Virus record (IMG/VR): IMGVR_UViG_3300047189_000049 | Coordinates: 1 to 62,185 of that record | Reading direction: 5' to 3' (one strand) | DNA: 62,185 bases | Origin: a virus | Part shown: positions 3,363 to 60,079 of the stretch, piece by piece | How positions within the stretch are numbered: the first letter of the stretch is position 1 | How the letters are laid out: every line of letters begins with the position of its first letter | Made by a program: the position numbers and the translations under genes | The notes under the pieces: generated by a model | What the model saw: the letters and a program-made list of their open reading frames with translations, nothing else | The model's database searches: none | What the model was told of the DNA's origin: nothing

Positions 3363-3974
3363 TCAGTCCTTACGTGGTGGGGCAAGATTCTTCAGCGTCT
3401 TGATGGTATCGCGCCGGTAGCGCTTCACGAACTCGTCGAGCACACGGTGGCCCATGTCGAGGTCGCCGTCGCCGGCCACGCGCACTTCGTCTGGGGATAG
3501 CACGTACTCACCGCCCGCGGCGACGATGGCAACGCCCGGGTCTTTCGCCGCGACCTGACCGCCAGCAGCACGCTGCACTGGCTCGCCGTACGGGCCGGCT
3601 CCCTGACCATAGGGCATGTCGCCGGCGCCACCGTACGGCAGGCCGCTGAACATGCGGCGCATGTGCTTGAAGCCCGCCATCGTGTTGCCTTCGCCCATCG
3701 CCGAGATGATGTCGGCGGGGATCACGTACGAGCCGCTCGGCACGTGCATCGGCAGATGGTCGGTGCGGCCCGCCACCGGGCTGTGTATCGGACCGGTGTG
3801 CAGGTGCGAGCCCATGGTCTGGGTGGTCGTCGTGAAGCTGCCGCCGCCGGCCTTGGCCTTGCGGGCGACGTCCAGCGCGATGGCGACGGCCTGCTTCTGC
3901 GGGCGGCCGGTGCCGACGAGCTCGGAGATGTTCGCCGAGATGGCTTTGCGGGAGTGACCTTTTGCGAGTGGCAT
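3363..3974 (-). CDS. Conserved phage virion-associated protein (unknown function)
   Basis: The protein has 203 residues. The N-terminus MPLAKGHSRKAISANISELV, followed by KQAVAIALDVARKAKAG, is the familiar basic motif of small phage proteins found near tail and head genes. A middle region contains VPSGSYVIPADIISAMGEGN, and the C-terminal part has AAGGEYVLSPDEVRVAGDGD. These short motifs recur in virion genes of podovirus-like phages, but the biochemical role is unknown to me. It is packed between a structural gene and the acetyltransferase gene in a leftward late operon. Confidence 0.7.
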   Translation of the reverse strand: MPLAKGHSRKAISANISELVGTGRPQKQAVAIALDVARKAKAGGGSFTTTTQTMGSHLHTGPIHSPVAGRTDHLPMHVPSGSYVIPADIISAMGEGNTMAGFKHMRRMFSGLPYGGAGDMPYGQGAGPYGEPVQRAAGGQVAAKDPGVAIVAAGGEYVLSPDEVRVAGDGDLDMGHRVLDEFVKRYRRDTIKTLKNLAPPRKD

Positions 3975-18011: not shown

Positions 18012-18926
18012 TTACGACGTCGGGAAGGTCGCCCAGATCGCGCGCCAGTTGAAGTAGTTGAACGAGAACCGCTCGTACCCCTTCACCAGCAGGTTGTCCG
18101 TGACGAAGTCCACCTGCATGTCCGTCTCGAAGGCGACGCGCTTCATGAACGCGAGGCCGTTGATGTTGGTCAGCAGGAACCACGCGAACTGCGAGGTCAG
18201 GAAGTCGTTGACCATGTAGCCTTCCGGCAGACCGCCAGCGGTCGTCAGGATGGCGTTCACGTCGTTGTCGGCCGTACCCGGGCGCAGGTCCGTCTTCGTC
18301 AGACGGATCGCCACCGGCTCCAGCTGCGGGGGCACGATCAGCTTCCGGGCGCGGGCGAAGACCTTCAGGCCCGCCTGATCCTTGAAGTTCGTGCGGACCG
18401 CGATCATGCCGTTCAGCAGGGTCGCCTCGTTCAGGTCGACCTCGGTGGAGGGCTTGTTCGCGACCGTGCCGCCGTCGATGGGGTGCGAGGTGCTGCACAG
18501 GGCAACGCCGTCACCACCGATGGCCGAGCTGTACGTGGTGGCCGTGTTGAGCACGTTCGCCGCGTAGATCTCCTTCGTCTGCTGGAAGCTCTCGATGAGG
18601 CCCAGATTCGACGGGTGAAACTGCGTTTTGTACAGGTTGTCGTCGATGGCCTTGCGCGTGATGGCATAGCCCAGCGCGAGCTCGATGTGCTCCTGATTGT
18701 AGACGTAGCGCTCGCCGGCGTTATTGTCGAACGACGTCTGCGCACCTTCCGTCTTCAGCTGCGCGAGCCCGAGGTACCGCATTTCGGCGGTACGTTCGAG
18801 AGCGAGCTTGCTGTCGTACTTCGTGAAGATCTTGTCGTACTGAGACGGGATCATCTCGTACTTGCCTTCGATGCCACGAAGCCCGGGCAGCAGAAGGTCC
18901 TTGATGGCTGAAAGATTGACGGCCAT
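18012..18926 (-). CDS. Major capsid protein (HK97-fold)
   Basis: The protein has 304 residues, a usual length for podovirus-like HK97-fold capsid proteins. It begins MAVNLSAIKDLLLPGLRGIE and contains GAQTSFDNNAGERYVYNQEH, LALGYAITRKAIDDNLYKTQ, a long spine-like helix and a C-terminal KGYERFSFNYFNWRAIWATF. The gene order scaffold, decoration-like protein, this gene and further head proteins supports the call. It has an ATG start at 18926. Confidence 0.8.
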   Translation of the reverse strand: MAVNLSAIKDLLLPGLRGIEGKYEMIPSQYDKIFTKYDSKLALERTAEMRYLGLAQLKTEGAQTSFDNNAGERYVYNQEHIELALGYAITRKAIDDNLYKTQFHPSNLGLIESFQQTKEIYAANVLNTATTYSSAIGGDGVALCSTSHPIDGGTVANKPSTEVDLNEATLLNGMIAVRTNFKDQAGLKVFARARKLIVPPQLEPVAIRLTKTDLRPGTADNDVNAILTTAGGLPEGYMVNDFLTSQFAWFLLTNINGLAFMKRVAFETDMQVDFVTDNLLVKGYERFSFNYFNWRAIWATFPTS

Positions 18927-20249: not shown

Positions 20250-20867
20250 CTACTCCTTCGGGATCGGGATGGATTCGATGGACTTCGAGACGCTGGCCAG
20301 CGACGCACCCTTGTTGTCGCGCCCGAATTGGCCCTGCGGGGCCTCGGCCAGCGACGACTCCTTGGCGCGCACCTGCAGCTGGGCCTTGCGCTTGTCGCGC
20401 GCCTTGGACTCCATGGTGAGCTCCATCGGGCGCTCCATCAGGATCATGCCGTCGCGCGTGATCGTGCCCGCGGTGCTGCCGCTCGGCATCATCTCGGGGT
20501 GGCGACGCGCCGGCACCGGCTCCCAGCCGTTCATGCGCAGGTTCACGTCGTACGACGGGTCGTCCTTGCCCAGCACCGTGTGGCGCTTCCACTGGTAGTC
20601 CCAACCCTCGGGGATGATCGACTGGTCGATGGCGAACTTGTCGCCCTCGTCGATCTCGTCGCCGCGGTGGTCGCGGATCTGCTTGGCACGCAGGGCCGCG
20701 CGCTCGCGCGATGTCATGCCGCGGCTGTCGACGACCGGCTCGGGAGAACCAGCCGCCGGTGCATTGGCCTCGGCCTCGACCGCATCGGCGGCGGTCTTCA
20801 GCTGGTTGTTCTTCGGCCGCACGCGCCGGATCGGGCGCGACGGGGTAGCGGTGGCTTCGGCGGTCAT
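20250..20867 (-). CDS. Head-region protein of unknown function
   Basis: The 205-residue protein has a basic, disordered N-terminus (SRPIRRVRPKNNQLK) and a middle GDKFAIDQSIIPEGWDYQWK, then YDVNLRMNGWEPVPARRHPE and GMILMERPMELTMESKARDK. The PEGWDYQWKR...GWEPVPA pattern is shared by a conserved family of phage head-region proteins of unknown role. It overlaps the scaffold gene's stop by ATGA, suggesting coupled translation. Confidence 0.7.
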   Translation of the reverse strand: MTAEATATPSRPIRRVRPKNNQLKTAADAVEAEANAPAAGSPEPVVDSRGMTSRERAALRAKQIRDHRGDEIDEGDKFAIDQSIIPEGWDYQWKRHTVLGKDDPSYDVNLRMNGWEPVPARRHPEMMPSGSTAGTITRDGMILMERPMELTMESKARDKRKAQLQVRAKESSLAEAPQGQFGRDNKGASLASVSKSIESIPIPKE

Positions 20868-21748
20868 GACAGCTTCCCTTCGCGCTGGAGCGCGAGCTTG
20901 TTGGCGGCGTATTCCTGAGGCGTCTGGCCCATGTTGGCGGCCATCTCGCGCTCTTCCTTGGTCAGGCGCACGACCTGCGGCCGGCTACCCGTGCCGCCAC
21001 CTCCACGGCTCACCGGGGCAGCTGCAGGGGCGGCGCTGCGACCACCGCTGGCCTGCGCCGCGGTGTCGCCCGTCGGGGCTTCAGCGGACGCCGTGCTCGC
21101 CGTGTCGTTCGAGTACCCCATGGTCTTCTCGACGGCGGCGAAGTACTCGCTGGTCTCGGCGGTCAGACCGTCGGCCAGCGCAGCGTGGTGGGCGGCGAGC
21201 ATCTTGTTGTACTTGCGCGGGTCCTTGGCGACCTCCGGGTGCGCACGCACCCACGCCGCCGACCGCGGGGCGAGCTTCGCTGCCAGCGCCTCGACCTCGT
21301 CGCTCGGCTCGGTCCTGCGCTGCACCGGCTGCTGCTGTTCGAGGGCGGACTTGCCCTGATTCAGCTGCACCAGCTTCGAGGCGTTCTCGGCGACGCGCGC
21401 GTTGATGTCGAACTCGGCATCGATGTCGCCCGCGGCGCGAGCCTCGGACAGCTGACGCTTCAGCAGGTTGTTGTCCTGCTTCACCGTCTCGATGGCGTTG
21501 GTGATCAGCGCGAGGTTCGAGGTGTGCACCTCGCCGCCGGCGGCAGCCAGATGCGACTCGGCATTGCTCGCGCGCGACTCGGCAGCGATGCGACCGTTGC
21601 GCTCGCTTTCCAGATCGCGCGTGAGCTTCGCGATGGCGTCGTCAGCGCTCGGCGCCGCAGCGGCGGCGGGCTTGCCATCGGCAGCGGTGTCGTCGCCGTC
21701 GACAATCACTTCGAGGTCGTCTTCGGGGATCTTTGATTCGGTGGCCAT
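20864..21748 (-). CDS. Scaffolding-type protein
   Basis: The protein has 294 residues from the ATG at 21748 (MATESKIPEDDLEVIVDGDD), with GGAG upstream. It has an acidic N-terminus, a long predicted coiled coil (KLTRDLESERNGRIAAESRA; KQDNNLLKRQLSEARAAGDI), a charged middle and a disordered Ala/Gly-rich region before a basic helical C-terminus. This architecture and its place just before the head genes fit a capsid scaffold that leaves during maturation. No protease motif is seen in it. Confidence 0.65.
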   Translation of the reverse strand: MATESKIPEDDLEVIVDGDDTAADGKPAAAAAPSADDAIAKLTRDLESERNGRIAAESRASNAESHLAAAGGEVHTSNLALITNAIETVKQDNNLLKRQLSEARAAGDIDAEFDINARVAENASKLVQLNQGKSALEQQQPVQRRTEPSDEVEALAAKLAPRSAAWVRAHPEVAKDPRKYNKMLAAHHAALADGLTAETSEYFAAVEKTMGYSNDTASTASAEAPTGDTAAQASGGRSAAPAAAPVSRGGGGTGSRPQVVRLTKEEREMAANMGQTPQEYAANKLALQREGKLS

Positions 21749-21759
21749 GGGGACTCCAG

Positions 21760-22167
21760 TTACCAGACTCGTTCGGGGTGGGAGATGCGCATGCGGATGC
21801 TGTCGTCCGAAAGCATGCGGCAGATGACGCCAGACGAGCCCGAGGGCGCGGCATCGTTCTTGATGCCGAGACTCCAGCCATCGCTGACACGGAACACGAT
21901 CCAGTCGCCGACGCTGAACTTCGCGTCGTCGCGCCATTCGAGGCACGCGTCGGGGCCCATCTTCACGATCAGGCCGACCTTGGACTGGTACTTGTCTTCG
22001 TCGCGCGTCGCATCGGGGAGGATGAGACCGCCAGCCGTCTTCTCGGGACGGATGTAAACGGCGACGAGGATCTGGTTCGAGCACACTTCGACGTCGCTGA
22101 TGTTGCCGAGCGACCGATAAATCTCGGCGGCTGGGTCGACGTTGCGTAGTGCTACTGCTTTGGACAT
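21760..22167 (-). CDS. GroES/Cpn10-like co-chaperonin
   Basis: The 135-residue protein contains the Cpn10 core: NQILVAVYIRPEKTAGGLIL, then PDATRDEDKYQSKVGLIVKM and FSVGDWIVFRVSDGWSLGIK. The KTAGGLILP region corresponds to the GroES mobile-loop flank and the VGDWIVF strand to the conserved VGD element. It is longer than host GroES (about 97) by extensions at both ends. It lies immediately upstream of the scaffold and capsid genes, so it could steer host GroEL to fold capsid protein, as T4 gp31 does. The start has GGAGATCAC upstream. Confidence 0.75.
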   Translation of the reverse strand: MSKAVALRNVDPAAEIYRSLGNISDVEVCSNQILVAVYIRPEKTAGGLILPDATRDEDKYQSKVGLIVKMGPDACLEWRDDAKFSVGDWIVFRVSDGWSLGIKNDAAPSGSSGVICRMLSDDSIRMRISHPERVW

Positions 22168-22496: not shown

Positions 22497-23540
22497 TTAC
22501 TTCATGCGGCTCTTGGCGAATGCCGCACCGTACTTGCGGTCCTTCTCCAGCCGACCAGCACCACCACCGGAGCCATTCTCCATGTGGATCGTGCGGCCGC
22601 CGTTCTTGCGCGGCATGGGGCCCGGAGGCGGCATCGGCGGCGGACCACCAGCGCCCGGCGGCGGCATGCCCGGCGGACCCATCGGCGGCTTCATCATGCC
22701 CGGCGGCGGCATGGGCGGCGCGCCCGGCGGCGGCATCGGCGGCATCGGAGGCTTGTCGTCCTTCTTGCCGGCACCGATGATGATGTTGATATTGGTCTTG
22801 CCGCCACCCTTGCGAGCGATGCGGTCGCCGACCGGGCGAGTGCCACCAGTCAGCGCAGCAGACAGTGCGCCGCCGACCTTCTTCGCGGCGCGCAGCGCCT
22901 TCGGCTTGACCATCTTGCGCACGAGCTTCTTGTCCTCGGCGACGTCGCTGTGCGCGCGGCCACCGCTCTTGCGCTGCGCGGCGTCCACCGCGTCATCGAT
23001 CTGCTTCTGGCGACCACTGACCTTGTCGGCAGCGGCGCCCGCGGCACCGGAGCCCAGCGCATCACGGCCCGAGCCCGGCATGAGCTTGCCGGCGAGCTCC
23101 TTCACGCGATCCTTCACGGCGCCCATGTAGGTGGGCTTCTCGTACTCGTCGACCGGGCCGCCATCGGCGCGCTTGATCTTGCCGCCGCGCTTGAATCCGC
23201 CGACCTGCTTCTCGCCGGCGCGCTTCTCGTTCGCCGACTTCACGTCGCGGTTGACGTAGTCGCTGGCCGTCATGCCGCCACTGGCGTAGCCGCAGTCCTT
23301 GAGCCGGCGCTGCACGCGGTCGGCGCGCTTGGCCTCGCTGTGACCGTGCATCTCCACGACCTTGCCGCCCTTCTTGAACTGGCGGCGCGAGACGGGGCGC
23401 TCGCCGGACTGCACGGAAGCACGCAGAGGCCCCGGAGTCGCGTAGTCGCTGGCGTCGACATGGGTGGCATCGCTGCCGCCAGACATGGTCTTGGCCTTCG
23501 CCATGCGGGCTTCGCGGATGGACTTGGCGGAATGGGACAT
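22497..23540 (-). CDS. Basic, Pro/Gly/Met-rich virion-type protein
   Basis: The 347-residue protein has a basic half (SHSAKSIREARMAKAKTMSG; QFKKGGKVVEMHGHSEAKR) with several KKGGK/RGGKIKR elements. A low-complexity stretch of PPMPPPG repeats follows (about residues 265-310), then GGRTIHMENGSGGGAGRLEK and KSRMK. It lies between the polyvalent/pyrophosphatase genes and the capsid block. Repeated GGK patches also appear in this phage's other large virion proteins, suggesting a DNA-contacting or ejected component. The function is inferred. Confidence 0.6.
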   Translation of the reverse strand: MSHSAKSIREARMAKAKTMSGGSDATHVDASDYATPGPLRASVQSGERPVSRRQFKKGGKVVEMHGHSEAKRADRVQRRLKDCGYASGGMTASDYVNRDVKSANEKRAGEKQVGGFKRGGKIKRADGGPVDEYEKPTYMGAVKDRVKELAGKLMPGSGRDALGSGAAGAAADKVSGRQKQIDDAVDAAQRKSGGRAHSDVAEDKKLVRKMVKPKALRAAKKVGGALSAALTGGTRPVGDRIARKGGGKTNINIIIGAGKKDDKPPMPPMPPPGAPPMPPPGMMKPPMGPPGMPPPGAGGPPPMPPPGPMPRKNGGRTIHMENGSGGGAGRLEKDRKYGAAFAKSRMK

Positions 23541-23557: not shown

Positions 23558-24226
23558 CTACCGCTTTGCAGCGGACGAAGTGATTGACAGTGCCCGGTCG
23601 ATGATAGATCGACTCCGGGCCGGGCGCAAAGTCTTACCTGACGCCAGCCACGCCTTGAAGGCGTCCATGGACATCGTCTCGATGCTGGAGCAGCGGTCCC
23701 TGCCTTTCCCGTCGCTGAAGGCGGCCTCGTAGCAGCGCAGGGCGTCGCGCTCGCTGTCGAAGCCGATCATGACCTTGTGCTCGTCGAAGTCGCCGGTGCG
23801 GTGATCGCACTGGTTGACCACGAAGACCATGGGGCTTTCGAGGTCCGGGCCCAGATAGACGTCGACGTGGTCGCCGTCGGCGCCCGTCGTGCGCTTGATG
23901 TAGCCGTAGTCTGCCGGCATCACGCAGCGCCACGCGTGGCCACGGCCGTCCGTGCCGCTGCGCTCGCTGCCCTTCTTGTTCTCGATGCTGATGTCGAGGC
24001 CCTGCACGAGCTTGTGCTCTTTGCGGTAGTTGCCCGCGGCGATCTGCGCCTTGCTGGGCGAATGATCGACCTTGCCGCCGCTGGCGAAGCGCTTGCGCTG
24101 CCAGTTCATCGCGGGGCCAGTCGTGCACTCCATGCCGCCATGGGCGTGCACGGGCTCCTCGTTGTCGACCTGCGTGTGCAGGTTGTGGAACTGCTGGTAG
24201 AAGTCCTCCATCCCGAGCTTGCTCAT
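23558..24226 (-). CDS. Inorganic pyrophosphatase-like domain protein of the polyvalent-protein group (InPase)
   Basis: The 222-residue protein contains the InPase-like core of phage polyvalent systems: HKLVQGLDISIENKKGSERS, then MPADYGYIKRTTGADGDHVD and VYLGPDLESPMVFVVNQCDH, then FDEHKVMIGFDSERDALRCY. Asp-rich GDHVDVYLGPD matches the metal-binding pattern of inorganic pyrophosphatases. The gene overlaps the giant polyvalent gene by ATGA, so the two are co-translated. Polyvalent-type proteins are believed to enter the host with phage DNA and disarm defences. Confidence 0.75.
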   Translation of the reverse strand: MSKLGMEDFYQQFHNLHTQVDNEEPVHAHGGMECTTGPAMNWQRKRFASGGKVDHSPSKAQIAAGNYRKEHKLVQGLDISIENKKGSERSGTDGRGHAWRCVMPADYGYIKRTTGADGDHVDVYLGPDLESPMVFVVNQCDHRTGDFDEHKVMIGFDSERDALRCYEAAFSDGKGRDRCSSIETMSMDAFKAWLASGKTLRPARSRSIIDRALSITSSAAKR

Positions 24227-27200
24227 GACTGACCCACCTTGATGCGGCCGCGCGTCTGCGGCGCGATGTGCACGGTGTCGTTCGTCGGGATCTCGTTGCC
24301 GTGCTCGTCCTTGGCCAGCGTCCCGCGCTCGGTGCGCTTGGCCTTCGGATCGTAGTGCACGAAGAACCCGTGGCTGTCCTTCGCGGCGTTCTCCATGGCT
24401 CCCGTCGCCTTCAGGTTCTTGAGGCCTACGACCATGCCGGGCTCGTTGTCGCCGGTGCGCTGCAGGCTGTCGAGAGGCCGGAAGTCGTGGCTCAGGCCAT
24501 CGATGACCTTGTAGCGCTTGCCGGTCTCCTGATCATGCACCCACGCCGGCAGCACGCGCTTGTGCGAGAACACCATCGACACGTTGTCGCCGCCGTCCAG
24601 CCGGCGCCGCACCTGCTGCCAGTTGGTGTGCGGGTTCTCGACCTCGTGCGGGTTGTCGTTGAGCCCCTTCGGCTGCGACACGCCAGTCGACGAGTACGTG
24701 TAGTGGTGGTTCGGCGCGATGGGGTCGAAGTTCATTTTCGTGTAGTCGTAGAACGACACGTCCGGGTGCGCCTCGATCAGCGCCTTGTAGGCCTTCGGCG
24801 CGATGTCCGAGAGCACGTTCAGGCGTACGCCGAGGTGCGAGCCGCGGTAGTGCGCGTCCGTCTTCGCCTTGGTGATCTCGTCGTGCAGGCGCGTGATGAA
24901 CTCGGCCGGGTGACGCAGGAAGGCCTGCGTGCGGCGCAGGCTCGACAGGCGCGGGCCCTTGAACTCGCTCAGGTCCTGACCGCCGCCCAGCTTGAAGTAG
25001 TTGCCCGCGGTCTTGCCGAGGCACTCCTTCTCGCAGCTCGCCGAGTTCGGGCACGTGCTGAACTTGCCCTCCCGGTAGCTCGGCGCCAGCGACAGGCCCG
25101 TGGTCTCGACCGTGCGTCCGTCGGGCAGCGTGATCGGCTTGCCGCCGTCGTAGCCGGCCTCGGCCTTCATGAGCTTGGCGTTCTTGTTGAGCAGCGGCTT
25201 CGGCGTGCCGTCCTTCAGGATGCCCATGTGGCGGGAAACGGTGTCGGACGCGTGCTTGCTGTTCGCCACGCGCTGCGCGTAGGGCAGAGATAGGTGGTGG
25301 GCGAGCGCCGCGTTCATGATCGTGGACAGGTGGTTGATGTTCGGCTCGCCGCCCTCCTGATGCTCAGGCGGCGCAATCGGATCCGGCCCGCGCGACTCCG
25401 CGGCAGGCATGATCGAGAACTTCGTCTTGCCGCCGGCGGCGCGCGCCACGCGCAGTGCTTCGTCTACGTTCACTTCTCCACCTCGTGCGTATGCCTTGAA
25501 GCCGCTCTTCAGGATGCTCTCACGCATCTTAGGCGTGATCGCGAGACCCGGGAATCCGTTGGTGTGCTTGTCGGAGCTCTTCACGTGCCCGACCTGCGCC
25601 TGCGGGTCGTGCTCGCGAGCGAGCGCCAGCAGCCGCTTCGGGATGATGTTGTCGTAGTAGCCCTTCATGCCCTCGCCGCCGAGCTGCAGGCTCTGGCCGG
25701 CGAGCTCATGAACCACGGACGGATCTCCGTTGTGGTATCTCGGCATCGAGTTCTCAGGCTTCAGCAGCTTCTCTGCGATTTCTTGGCCCACTAGGTCGTG
25801 CAGGTCGTGTGGCTCGACATCGTGACGCGTCATGGCGTGCGAGCCATTCGGCTTGTACGCGAAGAACTGCTTCTGGTTCGGCCAGTACTGGATGCGCCCG
25901 ATGTGGTGGCTCAGGTTGTAGCGGTCAGCGTGCTTCTGCCCCGGCGTCCAGATCAGCTTGTCGTAGTTGCCCTTCGCGGCCTCGTACAGAGCTCGCTTCA
26001 GTCCAAGGTCGGTCCAGTGCTGGGTGTTCGTGACGTAGGGGCCCTGCGGGACTCCGCTCGTCTTCGCGAGGTCCTTGGCGAACGCGAGCGCTTCCTCGCG
26101 CGTCACATGCTGGGTGCCACCGTACTCGTGGTAGCCGGTCTCCGGGTCGACCTTGATGCGGCTCTCGATCTCCTCAGGGGTCGGCATGAAGCCTTTCTTG
26201 CGCCCAGCCTGCCCCCAGTCGCTCTGCAGCTCGTCGAGCAGCAGGTGACGCTCCGGCGGCCGAATGCCCTTCTTGGCGGCATCCTTGGCGGCCTTTGCGC
26301 GCTTTGCCGCCATGAGCTCTTCTGGAGGGTCGTTGAGCGCGCTGGACGACGTTGCTCCACGGAACGCTGTCTGGCGCTCGGTGTTGGCGCTCGCGTTCGC
26401 GGGGTCCTTGTAGAACTCCTGAATGGCCTCGCCGGGCTTGGTCCAGTCCAGATGCGGGCCGACGATGGACGCGAGCTTCTGCGCGCCCCAGTAAGACTTG
26501 ATGTTGCGCTGGACCGCCATGCCTGACGGGGCATGCGTGAGCGTGTAGTACTTGCTTTCCTGCTTGCCCAGACCCTTGTGCACGATCAGCCCGGGCGTCT
26601 TCGTCGACCACGCCGGAATCTCGTCAGGCTGGTCAGGCGTGCGGCTCGAATTGTAGGCAGGACGGTTCGTGATGTCCGGCTTCGGCGGCAGCGGCGGACG
26701 AATAGCCTTTCCTGCGTCGCCGAGGTCCTGACGGTCGCTCATGCGCAGGTGCGCGACGATATTCGGCTCGTCGTAGTGGCTTGACGAGTAGTCGCGAGGA
26801 GGCCTGAAGTCATCGCCCTCGGATCCACCACTGGCGCCAATCGTATGCGCGTGCATCAGGGCGTCGGCATGCGTCTGGAACTTGCGAGGCTGACCGGTCT
26901 CGTCGAGCACCGGGCCATTCGGTCCGCGCAGGCGGTAGTCGTTGCTGCCGAAATTGGAGATTCCCCACGGAGCCTTACCCTGAGGCAGGTGCATCCGCAC
27001 CTCTCGGTAGTCGCTACCATCCTTCGTCGACCAGTTCCTGAACTTCGCGCCACCGACTGCCTCCTGCAGATCCGGCAGGCTCTTCTCGAAGTGGTCAGCG
27101 AGATCGTCCTTGGTCACCGACTTCTGGCCGGCGAACTTGGCATGCACGCCGGAGCGCGCGATCTCCTCTGGCTTCACGCCCTTGAGGCTCGCGATCATCT

Positions 27201-29778
27201 GCTGCGGGCTGCCGCGCTGCTGCGGCAGGTTGCGCGCAGCCTCCGCGGCGGCGCTGTACAGGCCCTGCTGCGTGAGGTTGCGCTGCGTGAAGTCCATATC
27301 GCCGCCACCGACATCACCGCCGGAGGCATAAGCCTTGATGGCGCCGTCCGGGGTCTTGTTGTGACGGTCCCACGTTGACTGGAACTCGTCCTCAGTCATG
27401 TACTTCGGGATCTTCTCGCCTGCCGCTCTCATGCGGTCAGTGAGGCCAGTGTACTTGCTCGTATCACGAAGCCCGGTGTTATGCAGGTCGCCCACGCTGT
27501 TCCAGTTCTTCGATTTCACGAAGTCCTGTACGTGCGGCAGGTAGCGATCAGCAGGCTTCGCATTCCCCTTGCCCTTGATCTGCACGATGGACTCGCCATT
27601 CATCAGCTTGTCGTAGATCTCGGGGCGCTGCCGCTGCAGCCACTTGTGCATGTTTTCCTCGTGATACCCCTCGGGGTGATCACGGTTTTCACGGAACTTC
27701 TGGAAGAGCCCGGGCTCCTCCTCGTTGAGCTTGTCACCGCTCAGCGCGCCGATGCCGTTGCGCTCGGTCTCCACGGTGACGTGCGGCTGCCCCGTCTTCT
27801 TGTTGCGCAGGCTATAGATCCCGGTGTCGCCCTGAAGCACGTTGTCGGAATAGCCGCCAACGCAGTGACCCATCTGCTCTCCCTCGTACTTCAGGGCTTC
27901 CTCGACGGCCTTCTTGCCGGCGTGGTCCTCGTTGTCGAGCGTGCCGATGTCTGAGACGCCCTTCGTGCCCTCTGGCTTCTTAATCTCGTACCACGCGAGG
28001 TCCGAATCCGGGTAGTCCTTGTGCAGGTGGACAGCGGCGTTCGTCGCGCGCTTCTGGTCTGCGACCGCCTTCTGCTCCTTGCGCCACTCGTTGATCTTGT
28101 GGACGTGCGCCACGGCCTGCGGGACGCTCATGCGCTGGAGCGATTCGGGGCGCAGCTGCAGGCGCTCAGGAAGACCAGCGGACGGCGTCAGCGCGGAATG
28201 GAGCTCGTCGCGCAGGTGCGGGAAGCCTAGAGAGTTGACGTCTGGCTCGTTGTATCCATACACGGGCTCGCTCGGGTCGAGCTTGTGGAGCCACGCGTTC
28301 TCCTTGCCGAGCTTCGTCTCGTCCATCGTCTGGAACTCGCGCGCCGGGCGTCCGGTTAGCTCTGTGTCCGCGGCGTCTTCCCACTGCTGGGCAAGCCTTG
28401 ACTGCCCAAGCTGCTTATGGGGAACCTTGTCTCCGAAATTGATGGACGCGCGCTCTCGCTCTCTGCCGCCGGCTGCGTGCAGCGTGTCAGGCTGGTAATG
28501 CAGGATGCCGTGCTCGGCCTGCAGGCGCACCGGGTCATGCTCGGTGCCCATGTCGCGCTGGATGTACTTCTTCAGCGTCGAGCCCATCCAGTCGTTCACC
28601 GCCTTATGGCGGCGCGGTATCTCGAAGTGGTGCTGGAATTGCTCGACGAGCTCCTTTCGCTTCTGGTCCGAGGCGTACCGGTTCGTGCTCAGGGACTCGA
28701 CGGCCTTGTTGTGCTCGGCGATGGCCGTGTCGGGGTCAACGTGCTTATTCAGCTGGTACGACCAGACCTGCTGCTTGAGCGGGTCAATCGTGCTCTCGCC
28801 GCTCCCGGCGAGCCACTGGCCACCCGGGTGCTTGATGATGCTTGTGCCGCGAAGCTTGGGCGGCACGAACTGCGGGACGCCGTCTTCGAGGCGGCCGCCA
28901 CGGGCGCGGCCCTCGCGCTTCTCGATCTTGACGTGGTGCTCGGAGCCCGGGAACACGACGTAGTTGCGCGTGCCCTCGCCGGCGCCGCGGCTACCCATGT
29001 CCAGATACTTGTTGCCGTGTATGCCGAGCTTGGCGAGGTGCAGGCTTGCGAGCCGCTGCAGCTGCTTGCCGTTCATCGGGTCCTGCGGCAGGCCGTGGTG
29101 CTGGGCCACCTGATCGCCGATGTCGTTGTACAGGAAGTGGCCGGTGTCGCCGTACTTGCCCTTGACGGCACGCGCGGCAGCCAGCGACTTCGACGCGATG
29201 GGGTCGGCAGCGATGCGCTTGAGCACCTCGGGGTGCTGCTTGTCGATGGGCGCGTCCAGATCGATCATGTGATCGGTGACGTGCCGCGGGATCTTCACGG
29301 TGTACAGGCTGCCTGTCGCCGGACGGTTCTTATCCATCCACGCGGCGACACGTTGTGCAGCGGCCTTCTGTGCCGGCTCGTACTCAGGGTCGGCGAAGTG
29401 CTGACGGATCTCGTCGGGCGTGTGGTGCAGGAGCGCGTGCTCCCAGACCTCCATCTCCGGGTAGTTGCGGCGCGACTCGGCAGCGCTGTACTGCTTCATC
29501 ATGCGCTGCTCGTGCTCTGAATCGCGCGGCGTATACGACTTCGCCACGTCCTTGTTCTCGGCGAAGTACAGGCCGTGTCCCATCATCTGGGCGCCCTCGC
29601 CCGTACCGATGTGCGCTGGATCGAACTGGTCGAAAGCGTGCGGACCGCCATGGTAGGCCGTGACGTCGTCGTCACCGGCCTGACCGCCCGTAGCGCGCTT
29701 CAGCGGCACAGCCTTGGAAACTGACGACGCCACGCCCTTGGCGACGTCGATGGCGTGGCGGATCAGGTCGTTGGCCAT
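24223..29778 (-). CDS. Giant polyvalent protein (ART-like, PcfJ-like and gp88-like domains)
   Basis: The protein has 1851 residues. Near residue 40 it has an ADP-ribosyltransferase-like segment (TAYHGGPHAFDQFDPAHIG, then GHGLYFAENKDVAKSYTPR). Around 590-700 is a PcfJ-like domain with GEQMGHCVGGYSDN. Around 1180 is a segment LLLDELQSDWGQ followed by TDLGLKRALYEAAKGNYDKL, seen in phage polyvalent proteins. From about 1500 on is a gp88-like domain with CPNSASCEKECLGK, LNVLSDIAP and YDYTKMNF. Polyvalent proteins of this kind are thought to be packaged and injected to counter host defence. It lies between the portal and pyrophosphatase-like genes. Confidence 0.8.
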   Translation of the reverse strand: MANDLIRHAIDVAKGVASSVSKAVPLKRATGGQAGDDDVTAYHGGPHAFDQFDPAHIGTGEGAQMMGHGLYFAENKDVAKSYTPRDSEHEQRMMKQYSAAESRRNYPEMEVWEHALLHHTPDEIRQHFADPEYEPAQKAAAQRVAAWMDKNRPATGSLYTVKIPRHVTDHMIDLDAPIDKQHPEVLKRIAADPIASKSLAAARAVKGKYGDTGHFLYNDIGDQVAQHHGLPQDPMNGKQLQRLASLHLAKLGIHGNKYLDMGSRGAGEGTRNYVVFPGSEHHVKIEKREGRARGGRLEDGVPQFVPPKLRGTSIIKHPGGQWLAGSGESTIDPLKQQVWSYQLNKHVDPDTAIAEHNKAVESLSTNRYASDQKRKELVEQFQHHFEIPRRHKAVNDWMGSTLKKYIQRDMGTEHDPVRLQAEHGILHYQPDTLHAAGGRERERASINFGDKVPHKQLGQSRLAQQWEDAADTELTGRPAREFQTMDETKLGKENAWLHKLDPSEPVYGYNEPDVNSLGFPHLRDELHSALTPSAGLPERLQLRPESLQRMSVPQAVAHVHKINEWRKEQKAVADQKRATNAAVHLHKDYPDSDLAWYEIKKPEGTKGVSDIGTLDNEDHAGKKAVEEALKYEGEQMGHCVGGYSDNVLQGDTGIYSLRNKKTGQPHVTVETERNGIGALSGDKLNEEEPGLFQKFRENRDHPEGYHEENMHKWLQRQRPEIYDKLMNGESIVQIKGKGNAKPADRYLPHVQDFVKSKNWNSVGDLHNTGLRDTSKYTGLTDRMRAAGEKIPKYMTEDEFQSTWDRHNKTPDGAIKAYASGGDVGGGDMDFTQRNLTQQGLYSAAAEAARNLPQQRGSPQQMIASLKGVKPEEIARSGVHAKFAGQKSVTKDDLADHFEKSLPDLQEAVGGAKFRNWSTKDGSDYREVRMHLPQGKAPWGISNFGSNDYRLRGPNGPVLDETGQPRKFQTHADALMHAHTIGASGGSEGDDFRPPRDYSSSHYDEPNIVAHLRMSDRQDLGDAGKAIRPPLPPKPDITNRPAYNSSRTPDQPDEIPAWSTKTPGLIVHKGLGKQESKYYTLTHAPSGMAVQRNIKSYWGAQKLASIVGPHLDWTKPGEAIQEFYKDPANASANTERQTAFRGATSSSALNDPPEELMAAKRAKAAKDAAKKGIRPPERHLLLDELQSDWGQAGRKKGFMPTPEEIESRIKVDPETGYHEYGGTQHVTREEALAFAKDLAKTSGVPQGPYVTNTQHWTDLGLKRALYEAAKGNYDKLIWTPGQKHADRYNLSHHIGRIQYWPNQKQFFAYKPNGSHAMTRHDVEPHDLHDLVGQEIAEKLLKPENSMPRYHNGDPSVVHELAGQSLQLGGEGMKGYYDNIIPKRLLALAREHDPQAQVGHVKSSDKHTNGFPGLAITPKMRESILKSGFKAYARGGEVNVDEALRVARAAGGKTKFSIMPAAESRGPDPIAPPEHQEGGEPNINHLSTIMNAALAHHLSLPYAQRVANSKHASDTVSRHMGILKDGTPKPLLNKNAKLMKAEAGYDGGKPITLPDGRTVETTGLSLAPSYREGKFSTCPNSASCEKECLGKTAGNYFKLGGGQDLSEFKGPRLSSLRRTQAFLRHPAEFITRLHDEITKAKTDAHYRGSHLGVRLNVLSDIAPKAYKALIEAHPDVSFYDYTKMNFDPIAPNHHYTYSSTGVSQPKGLNDNPHEVENPHTNWQQVRRRLDGGDNVSMVFSHKRVLPAWVHDQETGKRYKVIDGLSHDFRPLDSLQRTGDNEPGMVVGLKNLKATGAMENAAKDSHGFFVHYDPKAKRTERGTLAKDEHGNEIPTNDTVHIAPQTRGRIKVGQS

Positions 29779-29781
29779 GGT

Positions 29782-32181
29782 CTACTTCTTCGCAGCCGGC
29801 TTCTTGGCTGCCTTGGCGCGCTGGGCGGCGGCGTGCTTGGCCACGCGCTCACGGGACGAGATCTCCTTGTCGGCGATCTCGTGGTTGTGGGCGTGCTCCT
29901 CGCTCTGCTGTCCGCGCTCGTGACCGTGCGCGATGACCTCGCGGGCGATCTCCAGAACGTGGTTCTGCGTGGCGGACTGCCGGTCGAGGTCGCGGTTCTG
30001 GTCTTCGACCTCGGAATCCTTGTGCTTGAGGCCGACTTCCTGCGCCTTGAACTGCAGGCCGAGGCGCGAGGTCTCCGCCTCCATGCGCTTGGTCTGGGCG
30101 TCCATCAGCTTCGCCGGGTCCGGCTGCTCTGCGCCTGCCAGCCCCTGCGGGGCGTCGGGCTTCTGCGCCTTCATCATGGAAGCCTGCGCGCTGAGCATCG
30201 CGGCGTCGGCCCGCTTGCCGTCGTTCTGGATCTTGGCCTGCGCCTCCAGCAGCTCCGGCGGCGGCTGGGCCTGCGCCTGCGGCGACGCGAGGAACTCGTC
30301 CGGGTTGCCCCAGCCAACGGCACGCAGGGCAACGCGCTCGACCTTCAGCGGGTCGTAGAGCTGCGGCGATTCCTTCTGCATCGTCTTGAGGGCGACGACC
30401 TTCATCACGCGCTGGCTGTGGCTGGCGGTGTTCGGGTCGGCCTGCGGGGTGAGCTCGTAGTCGTCGAGCGCCTTCAGGAAGGTCTGCTCGTCCCACGGGT
30501 AGCCGCTCTTGCCCTTGCGCTGCCAGAAAGCCTCGGGGTTCTCGCGGAAGCGCTCGATCAGCAGCTCGAATTCCTTCGACTGCGCGGTGTGCATGCGCTT
30601 GTGCACGCTGTTGAGGATCTTCTGGGCGACCTCGACCATGGCGAGCATCGTGCCCACCGGGACGTCGCCGCGGCCTTCGGCGACCTGCGTCTCCGACGTG
30701 CCGCCGACGCGCTGGCCGGTGTTGGCCATGTCCGTGACGAGCTGCATGAGAGCCATCGAGGGCTCTTTGTACGGCAGCGGCGTCACGAAGTCGCTGATCT
30801 TCATGCCGCCGGTCTTCACGAGCGCGGCGCCGCCGGGCGGCACGCGCAGGATGTTGGAGTTCTGGCGGCCGCCCACGTCGGACATGAGCACGCCGGGGAA
30901 GTTGGCGTACATGCCGGCGTCCAGCAGCTCGCGCCACGCCGCCGTGATGGCATTGGTGGTGTTGCCGAGGATGTGCAGCAGGCCGATGCCGTAGAAGCCG
31001 AGGCCCGGCACGAACAGGTAGACGACGAACGTCTCGCGGCGCTCCGGCAGGCGCTTGGCCTCCGGCTCGTTGTAGTCGCGCACGATGGACAGCACGGTGC
31101 GCGAGCTCACGTCGATGGTCACGCGGTACGGCACTTCGAGGCCCGTGGCCTTGCCGCGGATCTTGTGTTCGAAGCCCGGGATGTCCAGCTCGCAGTAGCA
31201 CTCGAAGATCTCGCGGTCGCGGTCCTCGGGCAGCGCGTTGGTGGGGTCGATGCCCTGCTGGGCGTTCTCGGCGCGCGCGGCGGCCGTGGGCTCGGCCTGC
31301 TTCGGGTCGGCCAGCTCGATGTCGCGGTAGACCTTGAGGATCTGCATGCGCTTGACGGTCGACGGCTTCATGAAGATGCGATGCGTCACGCGCTTGGCGT
31401 TCTGCGTGTCCGTGGCGTCCATCGACACGATCAGGTCGTCTGCGTCGACGCTCTCGCTGACCGGGCGGTTGCGCAGCGGGCAGTTGTAGACCTTCTTGAA
31501 GCCGATGCCGCCGAAGCCCACCAGCAGGTACATGCGGTCGCTGTCGGGGTAGTACTCGGTCGCCACCGCCGTCAGGTAGTGGTTCATGTCCTTTTCGAGG
31601 GCGTTGGCCAGTTCGTCCTCGGCGAGCGTCGGGTTGTTGTCGTCGTTGCGCAGCTTCACCGGGCCGTCAGTGGGCAGCATCTCGGCGCGCGCGTTGGCCT
31701 GAAAGCGCAGCACGGCCTCCAGCAGCAGCGGGTGGCGCACCTTCGACATGCCCTCGACTGGCGCGCCGTCGGCGGTGCCCTGCGTGCCGGGGAGCTCGAC
31801 CTTCAGGCCCAGCAGGGCGATGCCCTGCGCCCGGGTCTCGATCCACTCGGCGCGGCTCTGCTCGTCGCTGGCGATGCCGCGCAGCAGGTCCTCGCTGATG
31901 CGGGACAGCTCGGCGTCGGGGATCTTGTGGACGAGGTTGTCGAACCAGCCCGGCGGCGTGTCGTCCTCCGCAGACTCCACGGGCTTGCCGTCCAGCGAGA
32001 TCGTGATCGAGCCGTCGTCGTGCTCGATCTGGATGACGTTGCCGTCGGCGTCGACGGTCCTGTTGTCGCCGCCGTCAGCGTCCTCGACCACGATGTCCTC
32101 GTCGCCGCCCGCGACGGCAGGTTCAATCTCGTCGCCGTTGAGGCGCAGGCTACCGCCTGCAAGTCCGCTGTTCTCGGGCAT
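29782..32181 (-). CDS. Portal protein (P22 gp1-like)
   Basis: The protein has 799 residues, within the usual range for P22-type portals. An acidic N-terminal arm is followed by VHKIPDAELSRISEDLLRGI, then GMSKVRHPLLLEAVLRFQAN, VGFGGIGFKKVYNCPLRNRP and FYGIGLLHILGNTTNAITAA, a run of conserved portal-core segments. The C-terminus is a long helical barrel-like region rich in Glu/Lys/Arg/Gln (KDSEVEDQNRDLDRQSATQN). It lies between the polyvalent gene and the large terminase, the standard order of late genes. Confidence 0.85.
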   Translation of the reverse strand: MPENSGLAGGSLRLNGDEIEPAVAGGDEDIVVEDADGGDNRTVDADGNVIQIEHDDGSITISLDGKPVESAEDDTPPGWFDNLVHKIPDAELSRISEDLLRGIASDEQSRAEWIETRAQGIALLGLKVELPGTQGTADGAPVEGMSKVRHPLLLEAVLRFQANARAEMLPTDGPVKLRNDDNNPTLAEDELANALEKDMNHYLTAVATEYYPDSDRMYLLVGFGGIGFKKVYNCPLRNRPVSESVDADDLIVSMDATDTQNAKRVTHRIFMKPSTVKRMQILKVYRDIELADPKQAEPTAAARAENAQQGIDPTNALPEDRDREIFECYCELDIPGFEHKIRGKATGLEVPYRVTIDVSSRTVLSIVRDYNEPEAKRLPERRETFVVYLFVPGLGFYGIGLLHILGNTTNAITAAWRELLDAGMYANFPGVLMSDVGGRQNSNILRVPPGGAALVKTGGMKISDFVTPLPYKEPSMALMQLVTDMANTGQRVGGTSETQVAEGRGDVPVGTMLAMVEVAQKILNSVHKRMHTAQSKEFELLIERFRENPEAFWQRKGKSGYPWDEQTFLKALDDYELTPQADPNTASHSQRVMKVVALKTMQKESPQLYDPLKVERVALRAVGWGNPDEFLASPQAQAQPPPELLEAQAKIQNDGKRADAAMLSAQASMMKAQKPDAPQGLAGAEQPDPAKLMDAQTKRMEAETSRLGLQFKAQEVGLKHKDSEVEDQNRDLDRQSATQNHVLEIAREVIAHGHERGQQSEEHAHNHEIADKEISSRERVAKHAAAQRAKAAKKPAAKK

Positions 32182-32409: not shown

Positions 32410-34032
32410 CTAGGACGGGTATAGGGCGGAAGGCCCCTTGCCAATCTTGGTCTTCTCCTTGGCAATCTCTTCGGCGCGCTCTTCCCTGCGGGTGAGCATA
32501 CCGATATCCCGCAGATGGCGCAGCGCCCCCGAGACGGTGTCGACGAGGTCGTCGTGCTTGGCCTTCGGGAACAGGGCGCACTGCGTGATGACCTTGTCGG
32601 CCCACGTGCGGTCCGGGGCATACACGATGCCCTCGGCGAAGATGTGCTGGATCGAGTACAGGCGCGCGTACTTGTCGAGGGACTTCGGGTCCGACAGCTG
32701 CACCATGAACGGCGCGTCCTGATACAGGCGGCGCAGCTCCTGCGACACGCTGATGCCCGACGCCTTGTTCTCGATCATGAGCTTGTCGACTTTCAGCGCG
32801 CGGCACGTCTTCTCGATCTTCACGACGAGGTCGTTGAGCTCCATGCGCTCGGTCCACGCGTGCATCAGCATGAGCTTGGGCGCACCCTCGATGTACGTGC
32901 GCTCGGCGATCTCAGGGTTTCCGAGCCGGTCGATGACGCGCGACGTCACCGACTTGGTTTCCTGCGAGAACACGCCCCACACCGTCATCGCGCTCGGGTC
33001 GTTCTGCTCTTTCTCGGTGTACGCGGTGTCGACGAACGCCAGCACGTAGTCGAAGAGCGGGAAGGCGTCTTCGTCCCACAGCGTCCACCACTCGCGCTTG
33101 ATGATGCCGCCGCCCTTGGGCTCCGGCCGCTGCTGCAGCTGCCCCGCGGCCTTGTACGGCCCGAGCTCCTTTTCGAGGTCGTGCAGCGTCTTCTCGTCGA
33201 AACGGTCGGGCGCCAGCAGCTCTCCGGGCTCGGTGCGCGGGTCTTCCCAGCCGATGCTCGTGACGAACGCGCGGTCCGGCTCGTAGCGCATCGGCAGGCA
33301 AAGGTGCGTCCAGCGGCCGTCGTTCTTCTCGAGTATGTGGCCGGTGAGGTCGTTCTCGGCGAGGCGCTGCTGGATGATGATGTAGGCGCCGCGCTTGGCG
33401 TCGTTGAGACGCGTGGGCATCGTGCCTTCCCACCACTCGATGGTGTCCTCGGTGGTGGCCTCACTCTCGACGTCGTTGGCAGCGTTCGGGTCGTCGACCA
33501 CGATGATGTTGCCGCCCTCACCGGTGACGCCCGCGCCGATGGACGTGATCAGGCGCTCGCCGCCCGCGGTGTTGGCGAAGCGGTGCTTGGTGTCCTGATC
33601 GGCCATGAGCTGGTAGCGATTGCCCCAGCGCGCCTGATACCACGGCGACTTGATCAGCCGGCGGCACTTGACGGAGTCGCGCATCGACAACGCGTCCTTG
33701 TACGAGGCGAACAGGAACGGCACACCGGGCCCGGATGTCGGCCCCTTGCGGTGCTGCGCCCACGTCCACGCGGGCAGCGCCACCGACGTGATCGATGACT
33801 TGCCCATGCGTGGCGGGATGTTGATGATCAGCCGGCGGATCTCGCCGTCGACGACGGCCTGCAGGTGCTCGGCCACGGCCTCGACGGCCCAGCTGTCGAC
33901 CCACGGCGCGGGGTCGATGTACTTCCAGCCGCGGCACATGAACTCGTAGAGGCTGTCCTCGCACTCGACGCGGTCGATGTCGAGGAGCTGGGCGTCTACG
34001 TCTACCTCAACGCCGTCAACCTTCAGTTTCAT
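32410..34032 (-). CDS. terL: Terminase large subunit
   Basis: The protein has 540 residues. The ATPase part shows Walker A as INIPPRMGKSSITSVALP (residues about 71-88) and Walker B as NIIVVDDPNAAN (about 178), followed by the SATxN-type coupling region. The C-terminal nuclease shows DYVLAFVDTAYTEKEQNDPS, with the acidic catalytic residue in FVDTAY, and HDDLVDTVSGALR near the end. It drives packaging of phage DNA into the procapsid through the portal. It overlaps the 56-codon gene upstream. Confidence 0.93.
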   Translation of the reverse strand: MKLKVDGVEVDVDAQLLDIDRVECEDSLYEFMCRGWKYIDPAPWVDSWAVEAVAEHLQAVVDGEIRRLIINIPPRMGKSSITSVALPAWTWAQHRKGPTSGPGVPFLFASYKDALSMRDSVKCRRLIKSPWYQARWGNRYQLMADQDTKHRFANTAGGERLITSIGAGVTGEGGNIIVVDDPNAANDVESEATTEDTIEWWEGTMPTRLNDAKRGAYIIIQQRLAENDLTGHILEKNDGRWTHLCLPMRYEPDRAFVTSIGWEDPRTEPGELLAPDRFDEKTLHDLEKELGPYKAAGQLQQRPEPKGGGIIKREWWTLWDEDAFPLFDYVLAFVDTAYTEKEQNDPSAMTVWGVFSQETKSVTSRVIDRLGNPEIAERTYIEGAPKLMLMHAWTERMELNDLVVKIEKTCRALKVDKLMIENKASGISVSQELRRLYQDAPFMVQLSDPKSLDKYARLYSIQHIFAEGIVYAPDRTWADKVITQCALFPKAKHDDLVDTVSGALRHLRDIGMLTRREERAEEIAKEKTKIGKGPSALYPS

Positions 34033-57865: not shown

Positions 57866-60079
57866 CTAGATCGCGCGCTTCGCGACGTCGAGCGCCTTGA
57901 CGATGGCTTCGTCAGGTGCCTGCAGAAGTGGTTCGGTGCGGCTGTCCTCGACCTTCTTGGCGCGCTTCGCAGCGAGCATTAGACGGCCGACCAGCTGCTC
58001 GTGACTGCGCCCGGCGCGACCACCGCTGGCGCGCTCGATGCGACCGCCAGATGCCGACGCGTTCGGGCCACCCTCGAAGCGCTTGATTGCTTCCAGCAGG
58101 CGCGCCTTCACGCCGGGGCGGTTGATGTCGATGGGGTCGTTCACGCCGATGCCGAGGAAGTGCGCGACGTGCTGTGCGTAAGACGCCGGGGCAGCCGCAT
58201 CCCAGCCTTTGCCGGGGGTGTTGATCAGCGCGGCCGGCGTGTCCAGCCCGGAGCGAAGCTTGTGCTCAAGCAGGGCGGCGGCGGCGGCCTCGCCGTGGGC
58301 GGGAGTCGCGAACTTCGCAAACGTGCCGTCTGAGCCCACATACCCGGGCTGCGACTTCGCGAAGTCGCCGTCCTTGATGTTGCCCATGTTGTTGTTGCGC
58401 ACGCTGGGCGGAGCGCTCGGATCCGTCTGCGGGCTGTCCGTGGACGCGCCCTCGTTGGCGAGATCGCCGTAGTAGCCGAGCTGCCGCATGTGCTGGCCCA
58501 TGGGCGAGCGGATCGCGCCCTCGGCACGACCTGCGCCGTACTGTATGGCACCGGCGAGCCTCGGTGAGCTCGCGGCGAACTGGCCGACGGCAAGCCCCGG
58601 GTGGCCCATGAAGGCGAGAGGCGTGGCAAGCACGCTTTCCAGCGCGGTGCGCGCGCCGCCAGCGGACCACGGGTGCAGCGCCATGCCGGCGAGCATGGGG
58701 GCAAGGTGCGGATCCTTCGCGGCCAGCTGGTCGAGCAGGCTCTGGGCGCCCGGGCTCTTCAGACTGCGCAGCGACTTCGCCGTGGCGGCGGCCGCGGCCG
58801 TGTTGTTGCCGAGGCCGAGTGTCTTCTGCAGGTTCTGCAGGTTGTTGCGACCCGTCTGGTAGCTCTCCATGAGATTCGCGTATTCGGGGTCGGCATCGAC
58901 GATGGCCTTCTTCGTGGCGTCGTAGATGCTGCCCATGTGGCGACGCGCGACGTCGTTCGACGTGCTGTCGCGCAGGTCCCAGACGGCCTGCTTCAGATTG
59001 TCCATGCCCATGAGAGACTGGTACGCCCGATCCGGCGCGTGCTTCCAGCCGTCGACCATCTGCTCGACTTCATCGAGCATGTCGTTGGCGTGCTTGAACT
59101 GGCCGACGTTCACGCCGCCGGCACGCGTCTGCGATCGGGCATCCTGAATGGCCTGCTCGATGCGATTGAAGTCAGGGTTCACCTGATTCAGTGTGCCCTT
59201 CTTGGCAAGGTACGCGTCGCTCGCGTCCTGTCGCACGCCGCGCAGCGCGTCCTGCGCCGCCTGCTGGAACTCGGAGGCATCCCCCTGTCCGCTGTAGAAC
59301 CGCTTGAACGTGTCGCGCAGTGCCGGGTCCGAAGACGAACCGGCGGCGTGCGCAACCTTGAGCAGCGACGCGGGCACGCCTGTCGCCGCGCTCTGCGCGC
59401 CGCGGACGGCGATGGTTGCCGGCTTCGCTACGGTCTTGGCGACGCTCATCGCGGCGTTCACCGGATCCGCCATGGAGGCGACCTTGCCTACCTTTCCGGC
59501 GATGCCAGTGGCGCCAGCGCCGAAGCTCAGCGGCGTCGTGACGTCCATGAGCACGGACGCCGGGTCTTCGCCCAGCGCCTTCTTGAAGCCAGCCACGCTG
59601 CCGTAGGACTGCTTGTAGTGCTCGCCGAGCGCATCCAGCAGCTTCTCGTTCTCGGCCTTCGAGGCCGGGTCTTGAGGCATGCCGATGGCGCCAGCGGCCT
59701 TTGAGGCCACACCCTTGCCGAGCGCGCCAAGCGACTCCATGGTCTGCACGGGGTGCGCGAACGCCGACACCGTGGATCCGATGACGTCGCCGGCGCTGGG
59801 GATAAGGTTCTTGCCGGCCTGCTCGAACGTGTCGCCCCATGACGGCTCAGGACCACCGGCGGGGGCGCGAGCCACGCCGCGATGGACGGCCGGGGTCGGC
59901 GCGTGCGCGGCATGCGGAGCTGCGGGCCGCGTGGCAGCGTCAGGCTCCGGCTTCGGCTTCACCGAGGCAGCGAACTGCTGATAGGCTGCGTCGTCTCCGC
60001 CGTCGCCGGCAGCAGCCGCAGGCCTCACCGAGGCGGCGAACTGCTGATAGGCTGCGTCGTTGTCGAGTGCTTCTGGCAT
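57866..60079 (-). CDS. Large virion protein with C-terminal lytic-transglycosylase-like segment
   Basis: The 737-residue protein begins PEALDNDAAYQQFAASVRPA and repeats DDAAYQQFAASV after 22 residues, encoded by a duplicated 34-base core (59961-59994 and 60027-60060). A helix-rich middle follows (NLIPSAGDVIGSTVSAFAHP; GGVNVGQFKHANDMLDEVEQ). Around residue 560 SVRNNNMGNIKDGDFAKSQP and GSDGTFAKFATPAHGEAAAA resemble the muramidase-like gene at 11616-12026. It could be an ejected internal protein that opens peptidoglycan. The last part carries ASGGRIERASGGRAGRSHEQ. Confidence 0.65.
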   Translation of the reverse strand: MPEALDNDAAYQQFAASVRPAAAAGDGGDDAAYQQFAASVKPKPEPDAATRPAAPHAAHAPTPAVHRGVARAPAGGPEPSWGDTFEQAGKNLIPSAGDVIGSTVSAFAHPVQTMESLGALGKGVASKAAGAIGMPQDPASKAENEKLLDALGEHYKQSYGSVAGFKKALGEDPASVLMDVTTPLSFGAGATGIAGKVGKVASMADPVNAAMSVAKTVAKPATIAVRGAQSAATGVPASLLKVAHAAGSSSDPALRDTFKRFYSGQGDASEFQQAAQDALRGVRQDASDAYLAKKGTLNQVNPDFNRIEQAIQDARSQTRAGGVNVGQFKHANDMLDEVEQMVDGWKHAPDRAYQSLMGMDNLKQAVWDLRDSTSNDVARRHMGSIYDATKKAIVDADPEYANLMESYQTGRNNLQNLQKTLGLGNNTAAAAATAKSLRSLKSPGAQSLLDQLAAKDPHLAPMLAGMALHPWSAGGARTALESVLATPLAFMGHPGLAVGQFAASSPRLAGAIQYGAGRAEGAIRSPMGQHMRQLGYYGDLANEGASTDSPQTDPSAPPSVRNNNMGNIKDGDFAKSQPGYVGSDGTFAKFATPAHGEAAAAALLEHKLRSGLDTPAALINTPGKGWDAAAPASYAQHVAHFLGIGVNDPIDINRPGVKARLLEAIKRFEGGPNASASGGRIERASGGRAGRSHEQLVGRLMLAAKRAKKVEDSRTEPLLQAPDEAIVKALDVAKRAI
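59961..60060. repeat. 66-bp-period duplicate in the 737-residue gene
   Basis: A 34-base core at 59961-59994 is repeated at 60027-60060 with two or so mismatches. Both encode AAYQQFAASV at the N-terminus of the protein. The period is 22 codons, so the frame is kept. Confidence 0.8.

Follow-up and report, generated by a model that had tools for sequence, protein, structure and literature searches.

The DNA analysed here, called the window throughout, is the whole 62,185-nt (62-kb) virus record IMGVR_UViG_3300047189_000049, positions 1 to 62,185. On its minus strand, where all the features described below are located, two open reading frames (ORFs) with ATG starts that overlap by 4 nt (ATGA) encode a giant protein of 1851 amino acids (24223-29778) and a 222-residue protein with an InPase domain (23558-24226). 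The two are polyvalent proteins, a class already known and understood here in the sense of PMC5512222. Both genes probably code for late, virion-packaged proteins that enter the host together with the phage DNA, with a short helix of consensus VxxALxLTR (the tag helix) as the candidate signal for their loading. More tentatively, the phage lineage may use this helix, usually beside a GG joint, as a general loading tag for unrelated injected proteins, while its giants would carry a widespread, probably enzymatic module with a modelled fold that has no solved match.

The gene order on the strand is terminase (32410-34032), portal (29782-32181), giant ORF, InPase ORF, a Pro/Gly-rich ORF (22497-23540), the presumed scaffold (20864-22084), whose identity we infer, and the capsid protein (18012-18926, phrog_371). 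The portal immediately upstream is of the SU10 type (SU10_portal, 48.9 bits with a cut-off of 30) and the giant gene begins 3 bp downstream of it. The initial annotation had described this pair, with its ATGA overlap and its place right after the portal; both genes were found as described, and they lie among the late head genes. The location is recurrent, since a polyvalent ORF lies downstream on the portal strand, mostly directly adjacent, in 92 of the 131 related loci that have both genes, and the same slot is found in MW202675 and phiGT1. In phage DSL-LC04 (OR003939.1, L255:5302-7779) the PcfJ-type module has a gene of its own that sits between those of the terminase and the portal, so polyvalent genes can occupy either side of the portal. 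The giant combines domains of unrelated predicted activity in a single polypeptide (ART-like, PcfJ and GP88 modules plus an unnamed middle module) at a conserved position next to a virion gene, and the InPase ORF, with one named domain, is polyvalent by context only. Similarly, the proteins described by Iyer et al. 2017 from phages and conjugative elements (PMC5512222) contain several unrelated enzymatic modules per chain, ART and InPase modules among them, and have a late virion-gene neighbourhood; PcfJ and gp88 are not named in the accessible text.

Packaging is likely on two grounds, the late-gene position beside the portal and the InPase homologue of Cellulophaga phage phi13:1, which its annotation lists as a virion component on the basis of tandem mass spectrometry (MS/MS). 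For other InPase homologues the annotation reads internal or minor head protein. Under this reading the giant and the InPase protein would be loaded into the virion late and injected into the bacterium with the DNA, and each module would work inside the host cell, the ART module by ADP-ribosyl transfer and the InPase by hydrolysis of phosphoesters or pyrophosphate. Neutralisation of host defences, which the initial annotation proposed for such proteins, would be a hypothetical role of this pair. The late position is also compatible with proteins that stay unpackaged and act in the producing cell, where they might help assembly or oppose superinfecting phages, and PMC5512222 mentions that such domains may also counter superinfection. 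This we consider quite improbable given the virion, internal and minor head annotations of the InPase homologues.

Further evidence comes from the distribution of the tag helix, counted with the pattern [IV]xxA[LM]x[LVIT][TA][RSGKQH] in 809 dereplicated ORFs (145 polyvalent and 664 other) from related viral loci. Near a terminus it occurred 41 times where 0.6 were expected: the first 45 residues held 20 of these copies, against an expectation of 0.4, and the last 35 residues held 21, against 0.2. The usual starting points are residues 5-9 and about 12-30 residues before the C-terminus. It was present on 34 of the 145 polyvalent ORFs and on 5 of the 664 others (Fisher p = 3e-22). Homologues of the portal had one occurrence against 4.1 expected and those of the terminase none against 1.2, and a scan of the window portal and presumed scaffold found no tag helix. 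The helix is amphipathic, with a mean moment of 0.44 compared with 0.29 for shuffled sequences. Tags from different phages have a codon identity of 0.283, near the 0.256 expected from codon usage, so the conservation is at the protein level, and a DNA recombination cassette at the junctions was rejected on the same value. A related explanation, that the tags are mere flexible linkers or leftover ends, which common descent or a cassette that promotes shuffling has spread, would agree with the shuffling of modules among the relatives and with one long repeat inside ORF 60082-62166. We find it unlikely, in view of the codon identity, of the conserved hydrophobic spacing and of tags that adjoin ART, middle, GP88 and InPase modules, all four types counted.

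Most of these helices have a GG motif as neighbour. The modules end in [YF][AK]xGGx[V]. Of the broader motif [YFA][AKEDVRS]xGGx[VI], the 159 polyvalent ORFs contain 204 copies, where shuffled sequences would give about 10; in homologues of the terminase, portal and presumed scaffold it is at about chance level. Its distance from the module ends is fixed: all 26 ART module ends (NYVVF) are followed by a GG, 25 of them at +13 and one at +14, and so are 47 of 49 ends of the middle module, 40 of the 49 at +9 or +10. The giant has one such junction, YASGGDVG, at residues 817-824 (27307-27330) and another, YARGGEV followed by the tag helix VDEALRVAR, at residues 1430-1446 (25441-25491); in the InPase protein FASGGKVD (residues 47-54, 24065-24088) stands just before the InPase domain. 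In the 3305-residue polyvalent ORF of another locus (L013:2215-12129) a recurring junction motif [KR][FY]S[LV]R replaces the GG type.

The GG joints would be flexible separators of the modules, and the amphipathic helix at ends and joints would recruit polyvalent and ejection proteins into the procapsid. The fixed distance from the module ends, together with the disorder of the joint in the middle-module model (predicted local distance difference test, pLDDT, about 37 for the last residues), would also fit maturation sites at which a protease splits a polyprotein into its modules, either while the head is being assembled or once the protein has been injected, and metallopeptidase processing of polyvalent proteins is proposed in PMC5512222. 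Such processing seems a rather doubtful explanation: MPTase-PolyVal was not found in the window, by a search whose control carries a caveat, the scanned window proteins contain no peptidase except an S74 chaperone domain, and cleavage leaves the helix position at the extreme N- and C-termini unexplained.

A loading signal is, in our view, the most economical interpretation because the position of the tag resembles that of the signal of DarB from phage P1. DarB is a packaged protein of 250 kDa that needs an N-terminal signal; its N-terminal 30 residues suffice to send a reporter to the capsid, residues 6-10 are implicated, and no consensus packaging signal was found for the Dar proteins (PMC9024508). 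Like the giant described here DarB is very large, and it has an anti-defence role. In the window lineage, by contrast, a consensus helix is shared by many proteins and appears also at C-termini and internal joints; the likeness drawn here is one of position. The internal proteins of T4, cited in PMC9024508, are another parallel, in which a short N-terminal signal carries effectors into the head as proposed here; the differences are that the scan of window proteins revealed no prohead protease and that the tag occurs at C-termini and inside proteins as well. By this analogy the tag helix is the best candidate for a cargo-loading signal.

Several observations weigh against this interpretation. 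With a relaxed pattern the tag was near chance in the distant phages CRP-902, phiGT1, Lo5R7ANS and HTVC023P; since such ART/GP88-carrying phages are at chance level, the tag is lineage-limited. By these patterns no more than roughly one in four to one in three of the polyvalent ORFs, whose ends are uncertain, has a terminal tag. The p-values are optimistic because the pattern was noticed in the very data on which it was then counted, and because these sequences are related; comparison with the remaining ORFs on those contigs gives a sturdier argument. Single-sequence searches of viral contigs found no relatives of two other tagged proteins of the window, the presumed ejection proteins described below.

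Comparison with the relatives divides the giant into an ART module (residues 39-292), a PcfJ-type module (319-804), the middle module (about 835-1428) and a GP88 module (1482-1851). Module order and number vary widely among relatives, for example ART-GP88-middle or InPase-ART-middle, and the modules are therefore shuffled units. The whole giant as query gave no cellular relatives, and sequence searches against PDB gave none either. That ART-, PcfJ- and gp88-like domains occur in one chain, as initially annotated, holds for PcfJ and GP88, which exceed their Pfam cut-offs, and with a reservation for the first. The ART module (28903-29664, ending in GG at residues 294-295) matches ART-PolyVal (PF18760) at residues 41-141 with 26.7 bits, under the cut-off of 31.2, so we call it ART-like and not a Pfam member. 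Its triad is nevertheless kept, with H43 in 26, Y71 in 27 and D260 in 28 of 29 ARTs, which is the H-Y-D signature of ART-PolyVal and of the Tox-ART-HYD2 clade, whose active site is defined by this triad in PMC5512222. Of the Glu and His that had been named for mutation, the Glu was a wrong guess, the triad having Asp (D260) instead, so that mutating a Glu would not be the right test of this module.

Pfam PcfJ (PF14284) covers residues 551-674 with 30.2 bits (cut-off 25). The wider limits of the PcfJ-type module (about 319-804, 27367-28824) are set by phage DSL-LC04, which encodes the entire stretch as a gene of its own. The GP88 module (24226-25335) matches GP88 (PF17338) at residues 1529-1753 with 70.1 bits (cut-off 24.4); 41 of 41 aligned members match the family, and three cysteines are invariant (C1576-x5-C1582-x3-C1586). 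Its structure model (pLDDT 87.6) has strands that alternate with helices, and a fold search with it gave no significant PDB match. The top result was the radical S-adenosylmethionine (SAM) enzyme LIAS at E 0.23, and the weak, non-significant top matches also included the radical SAM enzymes QueE and BtrN. The assignment of GP88 as radical SAM was rejected, the cysteine spacing being C-x5-C-x3-C and not C-x3-C-x2-C and the fold matches being non-significant; a profile comparison gave about 1% probability, but this test was weak, as DUF5131 against radical SAM failed it too. Radical-SAM chemistry for GP88 may be kept as a lead only.

The middle module (25495-27276) is a single conserved unit of about 600 residues in the relatives. 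Unnamed sequence between the known domains had been expected at about 750-1100; it does exist, with the different span of about 835-1428 and as one module instead of loose sequence. Its relatives are on at least 487 viral contigs, and an alignment search found them also on 125 contigs of bacterial or archaeal genomes, the majority of which are metagenome-assembled. In a set of 80 members with 26-48% identity to the window protein, E1183, Q1185, S1186, D1187, W1188, Y924 and Y1375 are invariant in all 80 and E926, H1001, R1012, K1261 and R1286 nearly so; the motifs can be written Y924-R-E, H1001, R1012, E1183-x-QSDW1188, K1261, R1286-Y and GGxGM (1367-1371). Pfam searches on the 80 members gave scattered chance matches only, and neither NCBIfam nor PDB sequences matched the module. 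In its AlphaFold model, which has a mean pLDDT of 76.5, 292 residues exceed 90, and the inserts are of low confidence. The suggestion that this region has no recognised fold agrees with the search of that model, in which no PDB match reached E<=0.001; a distant fold could have been missed because the inserts are disordered. There were 22 matches in BFVD; those with names come from uncultured Caudovirales and are either uncharacterised proteins or proteins of polyvalent type. A GNAT acetyltransferase, hinted at by the strand-helix order, was discarded as no GNAT was among the top 50 PDB fold matches. We take the module to be probably enzymatic and without a detectable solved relative.

The second protein of the pair had been proposed to be of pyrophosphatase type, which is well supported by its match to InPase (PF18823) at residues 60-194 with 173 bits (cut-off 26.8). 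The domain (residues 56-200, 23627-24061) keeps the acidic active-site residues D117-x-D119-x-x-D122 of the family, with D117 in 11 of 11 sequences, D119 in 10 of 11 and D122 in 11 of 11. A C-terminal tag helix follows at residues 209-217 (23576-23602, IIDRALSITS region). The N-terminal mini-module of this protein (DFYQQFHN...GG, 24065-24226) recurs as ORFs of 80-100 residues and inside giants of relatives (e.g. L092:5224-5538, L004, L008).

The tag carriers of the window are the giant (at its junction), the InPase protein (at its C-terminus) and ORFs 57866-60079, 60082-62166 and 3363-3974. The N-terminus of the giant also has a relaxed match, IRHAIDVAK, at residues 6-14 (29737-29763). We presume that ORFs 57866-60079 and 60082-62166 code for ejection proteins because they lie beside an S74 tail protein and match in position the internal virion protein genes of MW202675 and phiGT1. 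The former has a C-terminal tag (57878-57904, IVKALDVAKR region), and this C-terminus, tag included, has a clear counterpart in a 620-residue protein of MW202675. The latter carries MDDAMDVAK plus a GG motif at its N-terminus, twice (61951-62166), and starts with a duplication of MDDAMDVAKIAAMVSSMRRGGRAGYAGGG in copies 63 residues apart (61890-62166). ORF 3363-3974 contains the tag-like helix VAIALDVARKAKAGGG (3861-3887) within a phrog_2423 mini-domain (MPLxxGxS...QAVAxALxxAR...GG), also seen at L260:8103-8684, that resembles a tag plus GG joint, and in L116 a polyvalent ORF has a phrog_2423-like stretch close to its start. This mini-domain may be the origin of the tag. The Pro/Gly-rich protein next to the InPase gene has two GG motifs, FKKGGKV (near residue 55) and FKRGGKI, and is kept beside polyvalent genes across the relatives; it is possibly an assembly factor or a partner of the tag.

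A search of public phages for DNA-level relatives of the window found none. The nearest annotated phage is MW202675.1 (Caudoviricetes sp., Manatee Spring), with a portal 59% identical and the same slot; it shares the middle module, InPase, the GG-rich neighbour and tag helices with the window, but its modules are spread over three genes and its InPase sits at the C-terminal end of an 898-residue protein. In the accessible sections of PMC5512222 the middle module and a shared end or junction tag were not encountered, and no Pfam model matches the module. Judged by those sections and by open literature searches, two things are provisionally new: the middle module as delimited here and the tag that proteins share at their ends and junctions.

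How very large effectors are loaded into phage heads is largely open, and a recurring, easily scored tag would make the question directly testable. Structural work and enzymology have a concrete target in the middle module, which is widespread, has an invariant polar core and matches nothing in Pfam or PDB. If the tag does act in loading, it would provide a handle for bringing reporters into heads and would allow the set of effectors that a phage injects to be read from its sequence, including that of uncultured phages.

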